Shown here: positions 2,435 to 55,776 of the stretch, one piece after another
Layout of the letters: every line of letters starts with the position of its first letter
Position numbering within the stretch: position 1 is the stretch's first letter
Virus record (IMG/VR): IMGVR_UViG_3300047558_000171
Coordinates: 1 to 56,108 of that record
DNA length: 56,108 nucleotides
Strand: one strand, 5' to 3'
From: a virus
Notes under the pieces: generated by a model
The model's database searches: none
Seen by the model: only the letters and a program-made list of their open reading frames with translations
Told to the model about the DNA's origin: nothing
Position numbers and translations under genes: made by a program

Positions 2435-3804
2435 TAGATGTCAACACCAAATCTAAACTCAATATGGTTTGTAGTATTCTCAAGCTTTTTAATAGTTGAT
2501 CCATCAACTGTCTTAATTACAGAATACCCAGACATTCCATATAGTGGATTCACTGTGGCAATATTTTCAAGGCGTAGAGCATCAAGGCATACATAGAATA
2601 GATCATTTATTGTATTTGCAGAATCTTTAACAGATGCAAAAACCTTAATACTTGTTACCTGGTTCCAAGAAAAACCTGATGTTGTAAATAGGTCACTAAT
2701 TTTTTTAGATACTACAAAATATCTATTATTTGTAAAGCCTGCTTGAGCATCAGTTAGGTGAACTTCAAACTTTGCAGATTCTGTAGAAGCAGAATCAGAT
2801 AGTGCAAATTCTACTATCAAGTTTACCTCTGATGGATTCTCAAGTTCTCCACCTCGCTTGTTAATAACAGAAAAAGCTAATCTAATCTCATCTGATGGAG
2901 AGTTTTTGTCAAAATTGAGCTTGACATTGTTTAGATGGATATGGTCTCCAGAATTATAAACAACTCTTCTAGTATTTTGATCATAAGATAGTGAACTTAA
3001 ATTTCCACGTATTGCTACAACATTATTTAGATATCGACAAGTCTCATATCTCTTTACTCTAGACTCATTTGCAAATAATGTATTATCTGCATTTGTGTGA
3101 ATAACCTTACAATCTTTAAGCTGCCCATTTATAGTATAACTTCCCTCAAGCACGTTAGCTGAGTTTGTGTCAAGTGGGGAATAGATTACTGGAATAGGTT
3201 CGATATTAACTCCGTGATATTGCCAGTTTTCATTTTGTGAAAATGAATAAATAGTTTTGCTATCGTATGATCCTGCATCTGGATTTGCCTTAGCAGAGAA
3301 TAGACCAACCTCTGTAATCTCATATCTTTCTTCTGTTGGAAGTTCCGCAGTTAAAACAATGTCTGTGTAATAAGTTTTTGCAATACCACCAGAAACATAA
3401 GAACCTGAGATTGCGTTACTAATAGAAAAGTTAGTTGGTGAAGAATCAATAATAATAGCATCAGAAATGTTAAATTGGCTTGGTGATACACCAGAGATTG
3501 TTACACGATCTCCAGTAATGAATGAGTTTGTTGATGTAGTATATGTTACAACTCCATTTGAAATAGATGCCCCAGTGATTGTGGCAGATCCAGACTCTTC
3601 TGTAACATAACCTCTTGATGTAATTGGAACACGAAACATTTCAAAGTCTAGGTTTTGCTTTAGTCTTTGGGCAGCTATCTCAGACTGGCCTGGTGTAGTG
3701 GTATATGGCATTGGCCCACAGCCAACGGCAATGTGAGAAGCATATGATGGTGCTTGACCAATCATATATTTTGTAATTAGTTGTTGCCCTTTATTAGTTA
3801 TCAT
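2434..3804 (-). CDS. Minor tail protein (baseplate/fibre attachment)
   Basis: The 456-residue product begins ITNKGQQLITKYMIGQAPSY and continues with AVGCG, a FEMFRVPI strand and later LTAELPTEERYEITEVGLFS. This combination (a helix opening, an AVG.G strand, an FE..R strand and an R-Y-E-I-T-E-V-G-L strand) is a recurrent module of phage tail-tip and fibre-attachment proteins. The C-terminal half is beta-rich with few charged clusters. ATG 3804 has a GAGGTAAAG site. It follows the LysM protein with a 10-base gap and overlaps the next gene by one base, so it belongs to the tail tip operon. Confidence 0.65.
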   Translation of the reverse strand: MITNKGQQLITKYMIGQAPSYASHIAVGCGPMPYTTTPGQSEIAAQRLKQNLDFEMFRVPITSRGYVTEESGSATITGASISNGVVTYTTSTNSFITGDRVTISGVSPSQFNISDAIIIDSSPTNFSISNAISGSYVSGGIAKTYYTDIVLTAELPTEERYEITEVGLFSAKANPDAGSYDSKTIYSFSQNENWQYHGVNIEPIPVIYSPLDTNSANVLEGSYTINGQLKDCKVIHTNADNTLFANESRVKRYETCRYLNNVVAIRGNLSSLSYDQNTRRVVYNSGDHIHLNNVKLNFDKNSPSDEIRLAFSVINKRGGELENPSEVNLIVEFALSDSASTESAKFEVHLTDAQAGFTNNRYFVVSKKISDLFTTSGFSWNQVTSIKVFASVKDSANTINDLFYVCLDALRLENIATVNPLYGMSGYSVIKTVDGSTIKKLENTTNHIEFRFGVDI

Positions 3805-4645: not shown

Positions 4646-7600
4646 TAGATTACCTCACTTACGTACAATGTGCTTGAAGGTCCATCTCCAGATAGTTTAT
4701 ACTCTATGTTATATACAATAAACTTTTTATTCCTATCAACTAGTTGGTCAATACCTTGGTCATCTGTCCAGAATATCTGAACTATATCTCCAAGTTGAAC
4801 TATGGATCCTGCAAATACAGACATACCAATTGCCTTTCTTGGTTTAAGAATTTTAGAAGCAAGCCAACCCATAAGGTCTCTAGCAGAATCTTCATTCTGA
4901 ATATATTTAGCATCAATAGAGAATTCATTTTTGCCATAAGTTGATCTACTGGTACGTAAATCAAAATATTCTTTTTGTGCTTTCAGTGGTGAATTTATCC
5001 CAGTAACTACAAAATCAACATTTGAAAAATCACTATTATTTTTATAGTAATCATCTAGTGTCATTTTTCTATCTGAATTTTGGGTAAAGGTTACTCCCTG
5101 AATTCTCAGATAATTGCCAGTTGTTTCATCTAGACTAATAACGCTATCAGTATGGTTGAAAACTAAGAACTCTGCTCCATATGCACTTGGCATAAATCCA
5201 GATACTGTATATCCTCTCACCTTATTAAAGGTTGGAGAAATTTTAGCTGATAGAGCTGGGAATGCCTTGTCATACTTAATGTTAAAGTATGCAGCTTCAC
5301 GCATGATAGACCCAAATTCTTCAAAGAAGATGTCATGTCCTGGCCCTTGCTGGCCATTAATTTCTGATAGATATGCTTTTTGTACTGCACCACTCATAGA
5401 ATATTTTCTTAACGATTCTGATATGTCTAATGTACCGTCATCAAAAATTGAAGTAAGTGGTGTAGACAAGCTTGCAGATGTATCTATTGAAATCTTTTTA
5501 GCAATTGCATATACATTTTCAAACATTACTCTTGAGGTGCCACGAATAAATAATGCACTGTCTCTATACTCTGGCAATGGATCTGTATCATCAACAATTG
5601 CTACACATTGATTATTTATATATAGATAGAATCTTCTAGTAGATGCTTTATCAATATTCTCATATTCTACTGCTAGGTCATATACTGTTGGATTTTGCTG
5701 AGAGTTTAATCTTGACTGTCCTGCAAAATTGCCAGAGTCAACTAGGATGTTGGCAAGTCCTGACCACAACTTAATTGGTACAGCATTACCAGAACCATCT
5801 GCTTTTAGCTTATAAAATAAAACATTATTTAGTGTAACATCTTCGTTGCCAGTGATTGTATCATCAGTTAGAGCAATAATTTCAAAATAGTATCCGTTAT
5901 TGGTTGATGGATTAAGCATTACCGCCAAACCACCAGATGAGCCACCAATCTTTCCATCTGAGTAATATCCCATTGAGCCATATGGAGTTTGTGTTTTGTT
6001 TGTTCCATTTTCTGCTCTACCAATAATTCTCATTCTGGTTCCAAAATGAGAGAATGGTCTTGAGATACCAATTGGGACATAGCTTAAATAATCAGTAGCC
6101 TTGACCTCATTAGAAAATGTTGGTCCAGTAAATACTAATGCTGAAGACTGAACTGTTCCAACTTCTGCAATCTTGAGTTGGCTTACTTCGCTTTCAGTTT
6201 TATAATTTCCACTTAATGAGTTTCTAATGACACCATTTCTGGTAGCACTAGATACTGTTGAATTATCAACACCTGCTGATGCAACCCTTGATGCCACGCT
6301 TTTAGTTTTTGCCTTTTCTACATCAAAAAGAAGAAGATCTGATAGAGACATCTTGCATCCACGTGTTGGATTAGATCCATCAGAATTTGACCATTTAGCA
6401 TCAAGACCGTAGGAGTGTGTTGTAATAGTTGTTCCAAATTGACCACGACCATGCTTGCTTACTGCACCATCTTTAAATTTGGTAATACCATTTACTGTTT
6501 CATACTTTGGTTCGCAATAAATTCTTACAAGTCCAGTTGGGAACATGGTGCCACCAAATTTTACCTGCTGGAAATAATTAGAATATTCTTGAGTGCTTTG
6601 AATCCATACTGGTGCTGACTGTCCAGAAATTGAATATTGAACAGCATCAAACTTAATGATTTCTCCACTTGAGAAGAAGTATCCATTATATCTTGTTATG
6701 AAGTATACCCCTTCACCAAAATCTATAGTGTTGTTTTGAATAACTCCATTAACTACAGTTGGCACATCACTTGATAGCGTTGAATTCAGAGGGATGGCTG
6801 CAAGTGTATACGCAGACTGATTTGAGATTTGTCCGTTTTGTGTTTTAGTATTTAGAGATCCAGAAGCTTCCCATAACAAAACAGGCTTGTATATCCATGT
6901 TTTATTTCTATCAATCATTGATGCTTGCTTAACAGAACCATATGATCTTTGAATATATTTTTCTTGGTAGTTTATGGTACCACCATTAAAAACCTTCATC
7001 TCTTGCATAGAAATATCTTCAATATTTGCAAATAGAGTGTTAGTCTTTTCTCCACTCAAAATTATATCTGTATCTCTTGGTGCTACAGAGTCTGGCAATA
7101 AGTAGCTACGTGACATAACAACAAAGTTATTTTCTTCGTCAAAGAACATCGCATATTGTGATGACACTGCCAGCTCTTGCAATACCTGCATAACTGACTG
7201 ATCTTGTGACGTATAGAAGTATGGGACAATTAAGTCTTGATCTCCAGACATTCTCAAGAATTTATAGTTTGAAAAACCAATAGAGTCTAGCAATGTTGAA
7301 ATAATAACACTGATTGATACATCTACCATTAGCAATTCTGGTGCTGATAATTGCTCAAATAAGAATGATAGGTCTCTTAACTCAACTGAAACATCTCTTG
7401 TTGCAGCTTTAACTGATGGCCTATTGGCAGAATACATTGTTTTAATTGGAACAAGGTATGCATTTCCATTTGAATCTGACAATCTTTCATAGATCATAAA
7501 CTTAAACATTTGATCAAGATAGTTGGCAATTATGCTATTTTTATTATTTGGATTAAATACTTCATTGTAATCAAACAGTTCTAGAGAGCCAACAGATGCC

Positions 7601-51997: not shown

Positions 51998-52150
51998 ATG
52001 GCAAACGCAACTCTAACTGTTGGCTCGCAGTTCACTACCGCTAAGAGCGGTGTAGTAGGCACTATTCAGGAAATCGTAGAGAACAAGTCTGGTTCTATGC
52101 GTGTCCGTCTTGATGTAAATGGTCAGCCACGCTGGACTACTGTCAAGTAA
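51998..52150 (+). CDS. 50-residue SH3-like beta protein
   Basis: A short gene (MANATLTVGSQFTTAKSGVV...) with GAAGGAAG upstream. Strands with the pattern V-G-S-x-F-T-T, G-V-V-G-T-I-Q-E-I-V, then R-V-R-L-D-V-N-G-x-x-R-W fit a small five-stranded barrel, such as an SH3-like or KOW-like domain. The double promoter and structured leader suggest high expression. A covarying hairpin lies 23 bases after the stop. Confidence 0.65.
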   Translation: MANATLTVGSQFTTAKSGVVGTIQEIVENKSGSMRVRLDVNGQPRWTTVK

Positions 52151-52172
52151 GGTAAGCCCCTAGGCTTCTTGC

Positions 52173-52195
52173 TGGGTATCAAGTAAAACTGCCCA
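52173..52195 (+). ncRNA. 3' UTR hairpin, family member 1
   Basis: TGGGTA / TGCCCA stem (52173-52178 and 52190-52195) with loop ending GTAAAAC. It belongs to a set of five hairpins in which stem bases vary together while the loop end is constant. Confidence 0.6.
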
Positions 52196-52200
52196 CCTAC

Positions 52201-52229
52201 TTGACTTCTTACCCCAAGTCTAGTAAAAT
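52201..52229 (+). promoter_or_regulatory. Promoter
   Basis: TTGACT (52201-52206), 17-base spacer, TAAAAT (52224-52229). It lies six bases after hairpin member 1 and drives the 52264 gene. Confidence 0.65.
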
Positions 52230-52263
52230 AGTAATACAACCCAAACGAAAGAAGGAAGAAATA

Positions 52264-52710
52264 ATGGCGAAATCGCTATCTGTCAAAATCCCAACCGCTT
52301 CGCTAATCGCAGAAGTTGAGGCACAAATCGCAAAGGTAGAGCAGGACATTGAGAACTACTCTGGACTTCGCAAGCAGTATGAACTTGATGTAAAGCAGTA
52401 TGAGAAGGAAGTTATCGCTCACGCTATCAAGGCACTATCTGACCCAAGCAACATTGGAACTGAGAATGGCTCACTTGTTCGTGTAACAGGTAACTACCGC
52501 TACAACGGCGTGTCTGTTGAGTTTGATACTGAGGCACTAGGTTTCCCAAAGAAGCCAGAAGAGCCAGCACGACCAAATGAGAAGTGCTACTATGGTCGTG
52601 ACTACACTACCAAGTTGGACTTGCTCAAGAAGAACCTAAAGGTTCTCAAGATGACTCAGCAGGAAGAAGTCAATGCTTCAACCTATAACTCCGTAATGGA
52701 ACTGCTATAA
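52264..52710 (+). CDS. Coiled-coil hypothetical protein
   Basis: The start ATG 52264 (MAKSLSVKIPTASLIAEVEA...) follows GAAGGAAG; an ATG 63 bases earlier lies inside the promoter and is rejected. The 148-residue protein begins with KIPTASLIAEVEAQIAKVEQ and a long coiled coil, has a central beta segment (SLVRVTGNYRYNGVSVEFDT) and ends with another helix (KLDLLKKNLKVLKMTQQEEV). It resembles small structural or scaffolding proteins but no family is recognised. It shares codon style with its neighbours and ends with RNA hairpin member 2. Confidence 0.75.
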   Translation: MAKSLSVKIPTASLIAEVEAQIAKVEQDIENYSGLRKQYELDVKQYEKEVIAHAIKALSDPSNIGTENGSLVRVTGNYRYNGVSVEFDTEALGFPKKPEEPARPNEKCYYGRDYTTKLDLLKKNLKVLKMTQQEEVNASTYNSVMELL

Positions 52711-52738
52711 CCCTTTCCGTTCATCTCGGAAAAACACC

Positions 52739-52762
52739 TGAGTAAGTGTTCTAAACTGCTCA
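52739..52762 (+). ncRNA. 3' UTR hairpin, family member 2
   Basis: TGAGTA / TGCTCA stem (52739-52744 and 52757-52762, one U-G pair) with loop ending CTAAAC. It lies 28 bases after a stop codon. Confidence 0.6.
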
Positions 52763-52794
52763 CTCTAATAATCCCAACAAACAAAGGAAATCAA

Positions 52795-52974
52795 ATGGCT
52801 CGTAAGAAGATTGTTATCGCAACCGAGAAGTGGAACACCAAGAATGGTGAAATCTACAAGGCAGTAGTTCGCACGGCAGATGGAAAGTTTATTGGTGCTA
52901 CCAACCAGACCAAGAACATTCCTGTAAAGCAGAAGCGGAAGTCCCCGTCAAGTTTCTTCCTTGTTGGGAAGTAA
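52795..52974 (+). CDS. Small basic hypothetical protein
   Basis: A 59-residue basic protein (MARKKIVIATEKWNTKNGEI...) made of two strand pairs, K-I-V-I-A-T and Y-K-A-V-V-R-T-A-D-G-K-F, then a lysine/serine-rich tail ending SFFLVGK. It could be a nucleic-acid-binding protein. AAAGGAA precedes ATG 52795. No promoter box lies between it and the 52264 gene, so both share a transcript. RNA hairpin member 3 follows the stop. Confidence 0.65.
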   Translation: MARKKIVIATEKWNTKNGEIYKAVVRTADGKFIGATNQTKNIPVKQKRKSPSSFFLVGK

Positions 52975-52985
52975 ATGGGAAGACC

Positions 52986-53008
52986 TGAGTATGTCGTAAA
53001 ACTACTCA
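52986..53008 (+). ncRNA. 3' UTR hairpin, family member 3
   Basis: Perfect TGAGTA / TACTCA stem (52986-52991 and 53003-53008) with loop ending GTAAAAC. Compared with member 2, a U-G pair is replaced by U-A. Confidence 0.65.
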
Positions 53009-53058
53009 CCACTCTACCGCAGATGTCAAAAAGATCTTTGGAAAAGATCGAACCAGGC

Positions 53059-53089
53059 TTGACATTTGCGGTTTTGGGGGGCCGCCCCC
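53059..53089. repeat. Composite TTGACA-N15-GGCCGCCCC element
   Basis: TTGACA (53059-53064) and GGCCGCCCCC (53080-53089), starts 21 bases apart, as at three other sites. No -10 box. Confidence 0.55.
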
Positions 53090-53145
53090 GTTTGTAACAA
53101 AATAATAAAACCTTTAAGAAAAGCTTACGAAACGCCTGGATTAAC

Positions 53146-53174
53146 TTGACAATGTCTGTGGGTATTGGTATACT
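53146..53174 (+). promoter_or_regulatory. Promoter with TGTCTG box
   Basis: TTGACA (53146-53151), 17-base spacer with TGTCTG, TATACT (53169-53174). It drives the 53199 gene. Confidence 0.75.
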
Positions 53175-53198
53175 TGAGACATAAAGAAAGGCTAACTA

Positions 53199-53489
53199 AT
53201 GATTGAGTTTGACAACACTAAGAATCCATACCTCATGTTCTTCGCAGACGAAGGCTCTTGGGGTGACGCAAGCAACATTGTGATTGTAGACGCAGGTGAG
53301 ATTGACGGTCACTTCACTGAGGTTCTTGATTCTATTAGTGACCACAAGCGACCAGACTTTATGCGTTGGTATGTTGAGAACCAGACTCACGACCAGAATG
53401 TTGGAGAGTATGAGAACTGCGTTATCTGTGAGCGTTGGGAGTTTGGAACGGAAGATGAGATTCAGGAAGCATTAGCAGACGAAGGGTAA
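53199..53489 (+). CDS. Hypothetical acidic protein
   Basis: The 96-residue acidic protein starts MIEFDNTKNPYLMFFADEGS and contains GDASNIVIVDAGEIDGHFTE, RPDFMRWYVENQTHDQNV and CVICERWEFGTEDEI. The W-G-D-A-x-x-I-V-I-V-D strand pattern recurs in small phage proteins. Two cysteines in C-V-I-C may bind a metal but no partner pair is present. AAAGG precedes the ATG. Function unknown. Confidence 0.7.
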   Translation: MIEFDNTKNPYLMFFADEGSWGDASNIVIVDAGEIDGHFTEVLDSISDHKRPDFMRWYVENQTHDQNVGEYENCVICERWEFGTEDEIQEALADEG

Positions 53490-53491
53490 AA

Positions 53492-53513
53492 TGTCTGACC
53501 CCCTTGCTATAAT
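53492..53513 (+). promoter_or_regulatory. Promoter with TGTCTGA box
   Basis: TGTCTGA starts at 53492 and TATAAT lies at 53508-53513. It drives 53541-54447. Confidence 0.7.
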
Positions 53514-53540
53514 AGACAAACAAACGAAAGAAGGAAAAGA

Positions 53541-54059
53541 ATGGGAACTAGAGGACTAACTAAGGTTATTGACGCAGATGGCGTACTCAAGGTTGCACAG
53601 TATGGTCAATGGGACCACTACCCTAGCGGACAGGGTCTAAATGTATTGTCAATCATTTCTAAGTATGGAATGCTTGGCCGTATCAAAGATAATCTTAGCA
53701 AGTGTGTTGCTGGTACTGTAGAGCAGATTGAGCGTATGGCCTATGAGGCAATGAACACCAATGCTGAACTAATCACATTGGAGCAGGGTAACATGCTTGA
53801 ACGTATGTATCCACAGCTGTCACGTAACACTTGCAGCGACATTCTTAACGTGATTGCTTATTCTATGGGTAATGAGATTGTTCTTCACTTGGATACCGAT
53901 TTTGAAAACGATGAACTATTCTGTGAAGGTGTGTTTACCGTAAACTTCCAGACTAATGAGTTTATTAGTAACTGTGGCGTAGAGGTGCGTTTCCCTCTTG
54001 ACAAACTACCTACCGAAGAGGTATACTTAAATGCGTTCAGACAGGAAGCGGTGGCATAA
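53541..54059 (+). CDS. Conserved phage protein, MGTRGLT / QWDHYPSGQG family
   Basis: The 172-residue protein opens MGTRGLTKVIDADGVLKVAQ with the following YGQWDHYPSGQGLNVL. This N-terminal strand set is widespread in phage and prophage proteins, with a G-x-R-G-L-T start, a K-x-A-Q-Y-G-Q-W-D strand and a Y-P-S-G-Q-G turn. I do not know its function. The rest is helical, then beta-rich (LFCEGVFTVNFQTNEFISNC). AAAGAAGG precedes the ATG, and TAATG joins it to the next gene. Confidence 0.75.
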   Translation: MGTRGLTKVIDADGVLKVAQYGQWDHYPSGQGLNVLSIISKYGMLGRIKDNLSKCVAGTVEQIERMAYEAMNTNAELITLEQGNMLERMYPQLSRNTCSDILNVIAYSMGNEIVLHLDTDFENDELFCEGVFTVNFQTNEFISNCGVEVRFPLDKLPTEEVYLNAFRQEAVA

Positions 54060-54250
54060 TGGAAAAGCAACACTACACAATCCTAACTGGTGAGTCATAC
54101 AGCGTTATGGCCACAAGCGAAGATGAAGCAATGGCAAAGTTCTTTGTTCTTCAGGGGTATGAAGATGAAGAGGACTACAAGGATTCAGGTTTTGATTTCT
54201 CTAACCCTGATGATGTATCATACAATGAAACACTAACGGAGATAATCTAA
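54059..54250 (+). CDS. Hypothetical acidic protein
   Basis: A 63-residue protein (MEKQHYTILTGESYSVMATS...), with a strand pair, an E-D-E-A-M-A-K-F helix and an acidic tail (YEDEEDYKDSGFDFSNPDDV). The pattern Y-x-V-x-A-x-S-E-D-E-A-x-x-K is typical of small phage proteins whose function is not known. It is coupled by TAATG junctions to genes on both sides. Confidence 0.65.
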   Translation: MEKQHYTILTGESYSVMATSEDEAMAKFFVLQGYEDEEDYKDSGFDFSNPDDVSYNETLTEII

Positions 54251-54447
54251 TGAGCAAGTATGAAACTGTAACTGTTAAGCTAGTTGGAAACGACGGTAAT
54301 GCATTCTCTATCATGGGAGCTGTATCTAAGGCCCTTCGAAAAGCTGGAGCCTCACAGGATGAGATTAGTGACTATATGATTGAATCTATGAGTGGAGACT
54401 ATGATAATCTTCTACGTACCGCAATGAAGTGGGTTAACGTAGAGTAA
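54250..54447 (+). CDS. Conserved small phage protein (VKLVGNDGNAF family)
   Basis: The 65-residue protein reads TVTVKLVGNDGNAFSIMGAV, then SKALRKAGASQDEISDYMIE and SMSGDYDNLLRTAMKWVNV. The order V-K-L-V-G-x-D-G-N-A-F, a helix with A-L-R-x-A-G, and S-G-D-Y-D-x-L-L is a widespread small phage protein of unknown function. It is the last gene of the three-gene operon, and its 3' region holds a 7-bp inverted repeat and RNA hairpin member 4. Confidence 0.75.
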   Translation: MSKYETVTVKLVGNDGNAFSIMGAVSKALRKAGASQDEISDYMIESMSGDYDNLLRTAMKWVNVE

Positions 54448-54454
54448 AAGGTAC

Positions 54455-54486
54455 TGCAGGCTTTTATCCTTTCTTTCGTGCCTGCA
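54455..54486 (+). terminator. Hairpin TGCAGGC/GCCTGCA
   Basis: A perfect 7-bp inverted repeat (54455-54461 and 54480-54486) with an 18-base pyrimidine-rich loop, just after the stop codon. No T-run follows, so it is a weak terminator or a 3'-end stabiliser. Confidence 0.5.
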
Positions 54487-54498
54487 TGCTAAGGGACC

Positions 54499-54523
54499 TG
54501 AGCACGTCCATGTAAACTGCTCA
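54499..54523 (+). ncRNA. 3' UTR hairpin, family member 4
   Basis: Perfect TGAGCA / TGCTCA stem (54499-54504 and 54518-54523), loop ending GTAAAC. Compared with member 3, a U-A pair is replaced by C-G. Confidence 0.65.
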
Positions 54524-54544
54524 TTCTCCATACCTGGACTTTTT

Positions 54545-54556
54545 GGGATCGCCCCC
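54545..54556. repeat. GGATCGCCCC element
   Basis: GGGATCGCCCCC, a variant of the spacer element, followed directly by a DnaA-box pair. Confidence 0.45.
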
Positions 54557-54586
54557 TGTGGATAACTCTGATCCAGCTGTGGATAA
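54557..54586. other. Pair of DnaA boxes
   Basis: TGTGGATAA at 54557-54565 and 54578-54586 (complement of TTATCCACA), same orientation, 21 bases or two helical turns apart. Confidence 0.55.
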
Positions 54587-54589
54587 CTT

Positions 54590-54606
54590 TTACGATAACC
54601 TTACGA
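54590..54606. repeat. TTACGA direct repeat, 11-bp spacing
   Basis: TTACGA at 54590 and 54601; the second runs into CGACACGCCC, the inverse of the GGCGTGTCG motif. Confidence 0.45.
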
Positions 54607-54633
54607 CACGCCCAAAAATTTTCCTAAAATAAC

Positions 54634-54662
54634 TTGACATTGTCAGTGGTCTATGCCATAAT
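54634..54662 (+). promoter_or_regulatory. Promoter with TGTCAG box
   Basis: TTGACA (54634-54639), TGTCAG from 54641, CATAAT (54657-54662). It drives the DUF932 gene. Confidence 0.75.
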
Positions 54663-54701
54663 AGTCTTATAAGAAATCCCTACAAAAGAAAGGAGCCACT
54701 C

Positions 54702-55715
54702 ATGGCTCACCTACTAGAATCAGACGCAAACGGAAACACCGCTTTCGCTTCATTGCGAGAGCCAGCATGGCATGGTCTTGGCACTGTGTTCAATGAAGAA
54801 GTAACTACTAGCGAGATGTTGTCTCTTGCTCACCTTGACAACTGGAATGTTCGTCTTGAGGACGTTGCAGTTCCAGAAGGTTTCAACTCAGACAAGACTT
54901 ACTCGTTCGTTACCCGTACTAACCCATTTGACAAGACCCAGAACGATGTTCTTGGCGTTGTTGGTGAGCGTTATAAGGTGTTGCAGAATGAAGACCTATT
55001 TAGTTTTGGTGACAACATTCTAGACGGTGGTGGACGTTGGGAAACTGCAGGTTCTATCAAGGGTGGACGTGTTGTATTTGGTTCGCTTGCTCTTGAGCGT
55101 GAGACTGTTCTAGACCCTAATGGCGTTGCAGACAAGGTAAACACCTATCTGCTAATCAACACCTCTCACGATGGTTCGATTGCGATTCAGGCAAGTATCA
55201 CACCTGTTCGTGTTGTATGTGCAAACACTCTAAACCTTGCTCTTGGTTCACGTGGACGTGGCCCTAAGCAGTCGTTCAAGATTCGTCACACTCAGACCGC
55301 AGAAGGTAAGATTGCAGTTGCACGTGAGACTCTTGGTCTTGCGAACAAGTACATGGACGAGTTCGACAAGATGGCACACGCAATGATTCAGACTGAAATC
55401 ACTGATAAGCAGTTCAATGACATCATTCTTGCCGCGTATCCTAAGCCTGAGACTGACGCTAAGGGTTCTGTCAAGAAGTGGGAAAACAAGGTAGATGTAA
55501 TCAACGACATTTACACTGGCACTTACAATGGCATGATTGCTGGCAACGCTTGGGGTGCTTTCAATGCACTAACTGAGCGTCTAGACTGGTATCGTTCTGC
55601 ACGTGGTGGCAACAACGAATCTATCTTGGCAAGTGCTAGTGGCTTTGACCCAATGATGAACGCTGAGAAGAACCGCTTGCTCAAGGTTGTGCAGAGCGTA
55701 TTGCAGACCGCATAA
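54702..55715 (+). CDS. DUF932 family protein (phage/plasmid-like)
   Basis: The 337-residue protein has the DUF932 pattern: LREPAWHGLGTVFNEEVTTS, then YSFVTRTNPFDKTQNDVLGV, VVGERYKVLQNEDLF, FGSLALERE and ITPVRVVCANTLNLALGS. The family is common in plasmids and phages and has no proven function. It is often found near recombination genes and highly expressed. It is the largest plus-strand gene in the window and has an AAAGGAG site before ATG 54702, the best ribosome-binding site of the right part. RNA hairpin member 5 follows the stop. Confidence 0.85.
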   Translation: MAHLLESDANGNTAFASLREPAWHGLGTVFNEEVTTSEMLSLAHLDNWNVRLEDVAVPEGFNSDKTYSFVTRTNPFDKTQNDVLGVVGERYKVLQNEDLFSFGDNILDGGGRWETAGSIKGGRVVFGSLALERETVLDPNGVADKVNTYLLINTSHDGSIAIQASITPVRVVCANTLNLALGSRGRGPKQSFKIRHTQTAEGKIAVARETLGLANKYMDEFDKMAHAMIQTEITDKQFNDIILAAYPKPETDAKGSVKKWENKVDVINDIYTGTYNGMIAGNAWGAFNALTERLDWYRSARGGNNESILASASGFDPMMNAEKNRLLKVVQSVLQTA

Positions 55716-55726
55716 CAAAACGTGCT

Positions 55727-55747
55727 AGGCAACACGTAAAACTGCCT
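55727..55747 (+). ncRNA. 3' UTR hairpin, family member 5
   Basis: Perfect AGGCA / TGCCT stem (55727-55731 and 55743-55747) with loop ending GTAAAAC, 11 bases after the DUF932 stop codon. The stem differs from other members at several positions on both sides. Confidence 0.65.
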
Positions 55748-55776
55748 CCCCTAGGGGCTTGACAAAAGCTCCGATC

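Follow-up and report, generated by a model that had tools for sequence, protein, structure and literature searches.

The IMG/VR record IMGVR_UViG_3300047558_000171 is a virus sequence of 56,108 bases, analyzed here at its full length (the window). After five of its stop codons it carries a compact RNA element that is predicted to form an H-type pseudoknot of about 30 nt with two crossing stems, S1 and S2. The consensus of the element is S1 - C - TGAGCA - N - S1' - (T)AAAAC - TGCTCA, and sequence comparison makes both its pseudoknot structure and its wide occurrence near certain. A first-pass annotation of the window had described five covarying hairpins in 3' untranslated regions (UTRs). All five are present where it placed them, on the + strand and 3' of stop codons, and they do belong to a real covarying RNA motif, but the hairpin is only half of the structural unit. 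The loop of each is complementary to the bases just 5' of its stem, and pairing between the two converts the hairpin into an H-type pseudoknot.

Stem 1 consists of three to six base pairs, usually four or five, between a 5' arm located just upstream of the hairpin and the hairpin loop. Stem 2 has six base pairs, the outermost of which is optional, a correction to the 5-6 bp first reported for the hairpins. Loop 1 (L1) is a single C, and loop 3 (L3) ends in a nearly invariant AAAC. Pseudoknot 1 (52168 to 52195; this and the other four copies are on the + strand) combines S1 CTTG/CAAG, L1 C, S2 TGGGTA/TGCCCA, loop 2 T and L3 TAAAAC, and the -35 box of the next promoter-like site begins at 52201. 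Pseudoknot 2 (52733 to 52762), 3' of a gene ending at 52710, has S1 AACAC/GTGTT, S2 TGAGTA/TGCTCA and L3 CTAAAC. Pseudoknot 3 (52982 to 53008), which follows a stop at 52974, has S1 GAC/GTC, S2 TGAGTA/TACTCA and L3 GTAAAAC. Pseudoknot 4 (54494 to 54523) lies 3' of a phrog_1933 gene and has S1 GGAC/GTCC, S2 TGAGCA/TGCTCA and L3 ATGTAAAC. Pseudoknot 5 (55720 to 55748), 3' of a DUF932 gene, has S1 ACGTG/CACGT, S2 (T)AGGCA/TGCCT(C) and L3 AAAAC. The constant loop end GTAAAAC or GTAAAC of the earlier description therefore does not extend to the second member, which has CTAAAC instead; it is the AAAC that is conserved more broadly. Measured from the stop codon to the C that precedes stem 2, the gaps of pseudoknots 1 to 5 are 21, 27, 10, 50 and 9 nt, replacing the 11 to about 55 bases given before.

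Hairpins alone are only mildly unusual on the + strand of the window (6 matches versus a shuffled mean of 2.33 and maximum of 7). A scanner for the full pseudoknot, designed after the five sites had been seen, finds exactly these five in the 56-kb window and no site of comparable score on the opposite strand. When both strands of 200 dinucleotide shuffles of the whole window were scanned, three matches in total scored at least 10 (0.015 per window). Independent controls for the scanner came from reversed sequences and from loci fetched via protein homology alone. In 4.1 Mb of reversed sequence there were three matches with a score of at least 9 and none with at least 10.5, compared to about 690 real matches of at least 9. 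A tandem pseudoknot array, the layout of type III antitoxin RNA (ToxI-like), does not occur in the window.

Covariation supports both stems. Three reciprocal pattern scans of IMG/VR each left one part of the element free and fixed the rest. With S2 and L3 fixed, S1 pairing is kept in most viral-contig matches that have the 23-nt spacing. With S1 and L3 fixed, the four free inner pairs of S2 are all standard in 62 of 75 distinct matches (about 2% expected), and the stems include TGAGCA/TGCTCA, TAGACA/TGTCTA, TGGATA/TATCCA and TGGGCA/TGCCCA. With both stems fixed, each position of the AAAC at the end of L3 is 97-100% conserved. In the full set of 356 distinct copies, S1 pairs 1-4 and S2 pairs 2-5 take the top eight places when all column pairs are ranked by average-product-corrected (APC) mutual information. 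Part of these statistics rests on motif-selected loci; the same pairs make up eight of the top nine among the 144 distinct copies that were not selected by motif (loci fetched by DUF932 protein and genomes read from these). Across 44 diverse rows, 95% of cells are paired, 110 cells have changed on both sides (32 in shuffles), and covariation is 0.71 versus 0.22 for shuffled rows and about 0.1 or less for slid partners. The first-pass annotation had proposed a search of other genomes for homologues with compensatory changes, and the reciprocal scans, the mutual information and the 44-row count all reveal them strongly.

Stem 2 is conserved far beyond the needs of pairing. Together with the invariant C and the AAAC, this near-invariant stem could present a recognition surface to a host or phage protein, or to an endonuclease, that processes or regulates the messages. 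We regard such a binding site as rather unlikely. The 97-100% invariance of the L3 end and the occurrence of the module both after stop codons and in the 5' leaders that contain GP20-b RNA (compared below) would suit it, and protein binding to a phage pseudoknot is exemplified by the T4 gene 32 operator (PMC3014915). However, a partner that acts in phages of many bacterial phyla would have to be universal, compensated variation does occur in stem 2 (TAGACA/TGTCTA, TGGATA/TATCCA, TGGCCA/TGGCCA), and pseudoknot geometry alone can explain the conservation of L1 and L3.

The motif is peculiar neither to the window phage nor to Actinobacteria. By portal protein, the closest cultured relatives of the window phage are Streptomyces phages with about 45% identity. 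Among cultured relatives, Streptomyces phages Teutsch and Karp and Rhodococcus phage Weasels2 did not yield the element in the regions searched and with the pattern used, and unrelated phages have it, so restriction to the lineage of the window phage was rejected. In IMG/VR, the pseudoknot follows the stop codon in 76 of 80 DUF932 orthologues, and in three large relatives that were read through each genome carries about three to five copies. Among cultured or complete phages, scanner scores of at least 9 were obtained for Mycobacterium phage Labelle, Lentibacter phage ICBM2 and Paracoccus phage ParMal1. The same score is reached in Lactobacillus phages phiEF-1.1 and AQ113, Streptococcus phage Javan271, Arthrobacter phage Molivia, cyanophages S-RIM4 and S-EIVl (two copies), Nostoc phage NMeng1, the crAss-like phage cr7_1 (two copies), Acutalibacteraceae phage NatCom_11578 and a Microviridae genome; a Microviridae phage probably carries the element as well. 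The two pseudoknots of cr7_1 are consecutive (2959 to 3027), and the first has a divergent stem 2, TTAGCA/TGCTAT.

For queries so short, BLAST E-values are weak singly, and copies were accepted on scanner score. Weak BLAST matches in Klebsiella, Erwinia, Vibrio and Staphylococcus phages were rejected, and the Erwinia and Vibrio regions that were examined gave no scanner score. No match was found in E. coli genomes. Convincing copies do occur in some bacterial genome contigs, including Patescibacteria and Lachnospiraceae, and the neighbors of some of these cellular copies have few family matches. Some exact-pattern matches in cellular genomes were set aside as chance, having 24- or 27-nt spacings and mostly no S1 pairing in the canonical register. 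One Ignavibacteria contig has a dense cluster of several pseudoknots within about 4.2 kb (1772, 2893, 3033 and 5925), and the stem-1 pairing of its copy at 5925 is weak.

Placement in 3' UTRs at a minimum distance from the stop codon is well supported by the sequences. Gene calls for these position statistics were made with a simple home-made script, and counts are per upstream-gene family (127 families). The distribution of gaps between the stop codon and L1 breaks off sharply at its short end: 30 families have 9 nt and 12 have 10 nt, while three have less than 9 nt. A later set, retrieved by a different pattern, shows this edge again (8 nt twice, 9 nt 13 times and none shorter). A gap of 9 nt to L1 leaves about 4-5 nt to stem 1, and the mRNA is covered to about the 9-nt point by a ribosome whose A site holds a stop codon. 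TGA, the leakiest stop codon, is depleted 5' of the element (6 of 127 families versus 23.5% of all genes).

Because the minimum gap coincides with the leading edge of a ribosome stopped in this way, the element might instead be directed at the terminating ribosome that it abuts and affect its pausing, recycling, re-initiation or sliding. The ribosome dimensions used for this comparison are general knowledge. The spacing also resembles that of frameshift-stimulating pseudoknots, and a similar ribosome-directed role has been proposed for repetitive extragenic palindromic (REP) hairpins near E. coli stop codons. However, only the lower limit is enforced; gaps of up to 60 nt are common and there is no fixed frame, which makes this an improbable alternative. 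Stimulation of readthrough or frameshifting was considered separately and rejected: the gap is not fixed modulo 3, and in-frame extensions after the stop are short (median 7 codons), so neither process is likely.

A 5' leader element of the downstream gene, either riboswitch-like or acting in translational control, would resemble the Rfam class to which GP20-b belongs, and in Lactobacillus, Bacillus and Streptococcus phages the element does lie directly 5' of the scaffold gene. In related loci, however, the distance from the upstream stop to the element is tight (quartiles 6-15 nt), whereas the next start lies at widely varying distances from the element (quartiles 22-138 nt). There are also 42 copies with a same-strand gene only upstream, compared to nine with one only downstream, and promoter-like sequence intervenes between pseudoknot and next gene in four of the five window cases. 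A leader function is consequently very unlikely as a general explanation.

The 10 nt that follow the element are G-poor (0.88 versus 1.86 G per 10 nt) and often T-rich; a T-rich tail follows the pseudoknot in 41% of families versus 12% of controls. This enrichment suggests that some copies may help termination. Distant, high-GC DUF932 orthologues that lack the pseudoknot have a strong, terminator-like hairpin (-24 to -25 kcal/mol) directly after the stop. A transcription terminator that uses a pseudoknot in place of the usual hairpin is nevertheless hard to credit as the general role. The five window copies all lack a T-run, and no terminator-like site was found on the + strand of the region, which bears out the first-pass view that they are not ordinary terminators; an intrinsic terminator with a GC-rich stem and T-run was rejected on the same grounds. 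In addition, 118 copies end 2-13 nt 5' of a tRNA. These must be transcribed through and hence cannot be terminators. The adjoining tRNAs are of six types; tRNA-Asp downstream of DUF932 accounts for most cases, and the others are Gly, Gln, Thr, Asn and Glu. The gene order in Arthrobacter phage Molivia is single-stranded-DNA-binding protein (SSB) gene, pseudoknot, tRNA.

We tentatively prefer a reading in which the self-folding pseudoknot caps the 3' side of selected phage mRNAs and blocks their 3'-to-5' decay. It is favored because of the copies that adjoin tRNAs, where RNase P would generate ends, and because strong hairpins take the same place in the high-GC orthologues. Among the functions first offered for the hairpins (RNA-binding site, 3'-end protector or regulatory element), the putative role of 3'-end protector best fits the position. 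As known compact H-type pseudoknots do, the element would have its one-nucleotide L1 spanning the deep groove of stem 2, which is 6 bp long, and its A-rich L3 lying against stem 1. With this geometry the knot would resist unfolding and so could stop 3'-to-5' exonucleases (PNPase, RNase R) after a downstream cut of the transcript. The cut might be made, for example, by RNase P at the adjoining tRNA, which would put the pseudoknot at the extreme 3' end of the mRNA; endonucleases that cleave within the G-poor tail are another candidate. The element would sit as near to the stop codon as it can without being unfolded by the terminating ribosome, leaving almost no bare RNA between the last ribosome and the cap.

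Several observations weigh against a 3'-end cap. Four of the 80 close relatives lack the pseudoknot after DUF932, the nine copies with only a downstream gene have no same-strand gene upstream, and two of the five window gaps are long (27 and 50 nt). The T-rich tails are enriched as described, and a single orthologous locus supplies most of the tRNA cases. The chief evidence that use of the module is not confined to 3' ends comes from true GP20-b RNAs, which carry it in the scaffold-gene 5' leader; a terminator-like stretch often precedes it there, and the next start is no more than 13-30 nt away.

If a decay block exists, it would explain how chosen messages are stabilized without terminators, including messages severed from adjoining tRNAs, and it would make the element a portable 30-nt stabilizer. 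It is possible, though we hold this more doubtful, that one compact pseudoknot family serves as a general mRNA 3'-end cap in phages as different as large actinophages, Lactobacillus phages, cyanophages, crAss-like phages and probably a Microviridae phage, and that the terminating-ribosome footprint determines how far from the stop it lies. Such a cap would be the bacterial-virus counterpart of the exonuclease-resistant RNAs that eukaryotic viruses have, and would counter decay from the opposite end. Whatever its role, a widespread and strongly covarying structure that Rfam does not describe as such is carried by phage mRNAs, and its placement rule links mRNA 3' structure to the terminating-ribosome footprint.

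All five genes that precede the window copies are on the + strand. Pseudoknot 1 follows a 50-aa gene (51998 to 52150) with no Pfam or PHROG match, and pseudoknots 2 and 3 follow genes of 148 aa (52264 to 52710) and 59 aa (52795 to 52974) that also lack a family match; homologues of the 148-aa gene have the pseudoknot on their 3' side in many related phages. Pseudoknot 4 follows the 65-aa phrog_1933 gene (54250 to 54447), and pseudoknot 5 the DUF932 gene (54702 to 55715; PF06067, phrog_1221). Strong sigma-70-like promoters (TTGACA-N17/18-TATAAT type) lie 5' of many small genes between 51600 and 56108, where 20 promoter-like sites are observed versus 7.9 expected. Ten sites of GGNCGCCCC (0.1 expected by chance) occur between 46028 and 55786, nearly all intergenic and 5' of promoters, and this looks like a second repeated intergenic element of the window phage that is separate from the pseudoknot. 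By eye, an imperfect long inverted repeat, CCGCAGATGTCAA ... TTGACATTTGCGG, is also visible 3' of pseudoknot 3 (53020 to 53074), with a GATCTTT/AAAGATC hairpin inside it.

No Rfam 15 family matches the window at the gathering cut-off or at E-values up to 10, and known H-type riboswitches are among the families whose covariance models were thereby rejected. No paper describing the element was found in the literature searched, the coverage of which lacks many journals. A functional parallel may be offered by 3'-terminal hairpins and REP elements, which shield mRNAs from 3'-to-5' exonucleases. Like the element they follow stop codons, and a hairpin occupies the same place in the high-GC DUF932 orthologues; unlike it they are simple stem-loops, whereas the element is a pseudoknot with a fixed loop sequence and a putative shielding role. 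The T4-type gene 32 operator is likewise a compact H-type pseudoknot in phage mRNA with two coaxial stems, but its position is 67 nt 5' of the gene 32 start codon, and it serves autoregulation by binding gp32 (PMC3014915). STAXI RNAs (RF01728) are also small pseudoknots near mobile-element genes (PMC2864571). They differ in having two to three repeats and UUCG tetraloops and in occurring in Enterobacteriales near DNA-handling genes, and the window has no Rfam match to them.

The closest relative of the element is the 5' half of the GP20-b RNA (Rfam RF03003; Weinberg et al. 2017, as cited in PMC9241854). It has the same order of parts, namely an S1 arm, short L1, S2, S1' (GgC), UAAAA(g/c) and S2'. 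Rfam draws only the hairpin, although S1 pairs in the genuine members, which we took from 391 genomes, and this 5' module is the one found in the window copies. The first-pass statement that no named motif with this consensus is known holds for Rfam matches but not for the architecture, which already existed, unremarked, in GP20-b. The window copies are not themselves members, since they do not reach the curated cut-off of 36.2 bits and give no match even at an E-value of 10; Lactobacillus phage AQ113 aligns to the GP20-b model over its full length with 26.2 bits, below that cut-off. The second half of GP20-b, a hairpin followed by UAAAAA and AGCgUA, is absent after all five window copies. GP20-b also differs in location: it belongs to the leader 5' of the GP20 scaffold gene, and most members adjoin the following start codon with no anchoring to a preceding stop, whereas small genes and DUF932 precede the window copies. 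That second half of GP20-b (GGUGA-GC-ACCACC-UAAAAA-GCGUA) resembles a small pseudoknot with an A-rich loop, and GP20-b may therefore consist of two pseudoknots in tandem. Its second half and its start-codon placement indicate that the element is a broader stand-alone relative rather than a GP20-b member, and suggest that GP20-b is one specialized use of a much broader module.

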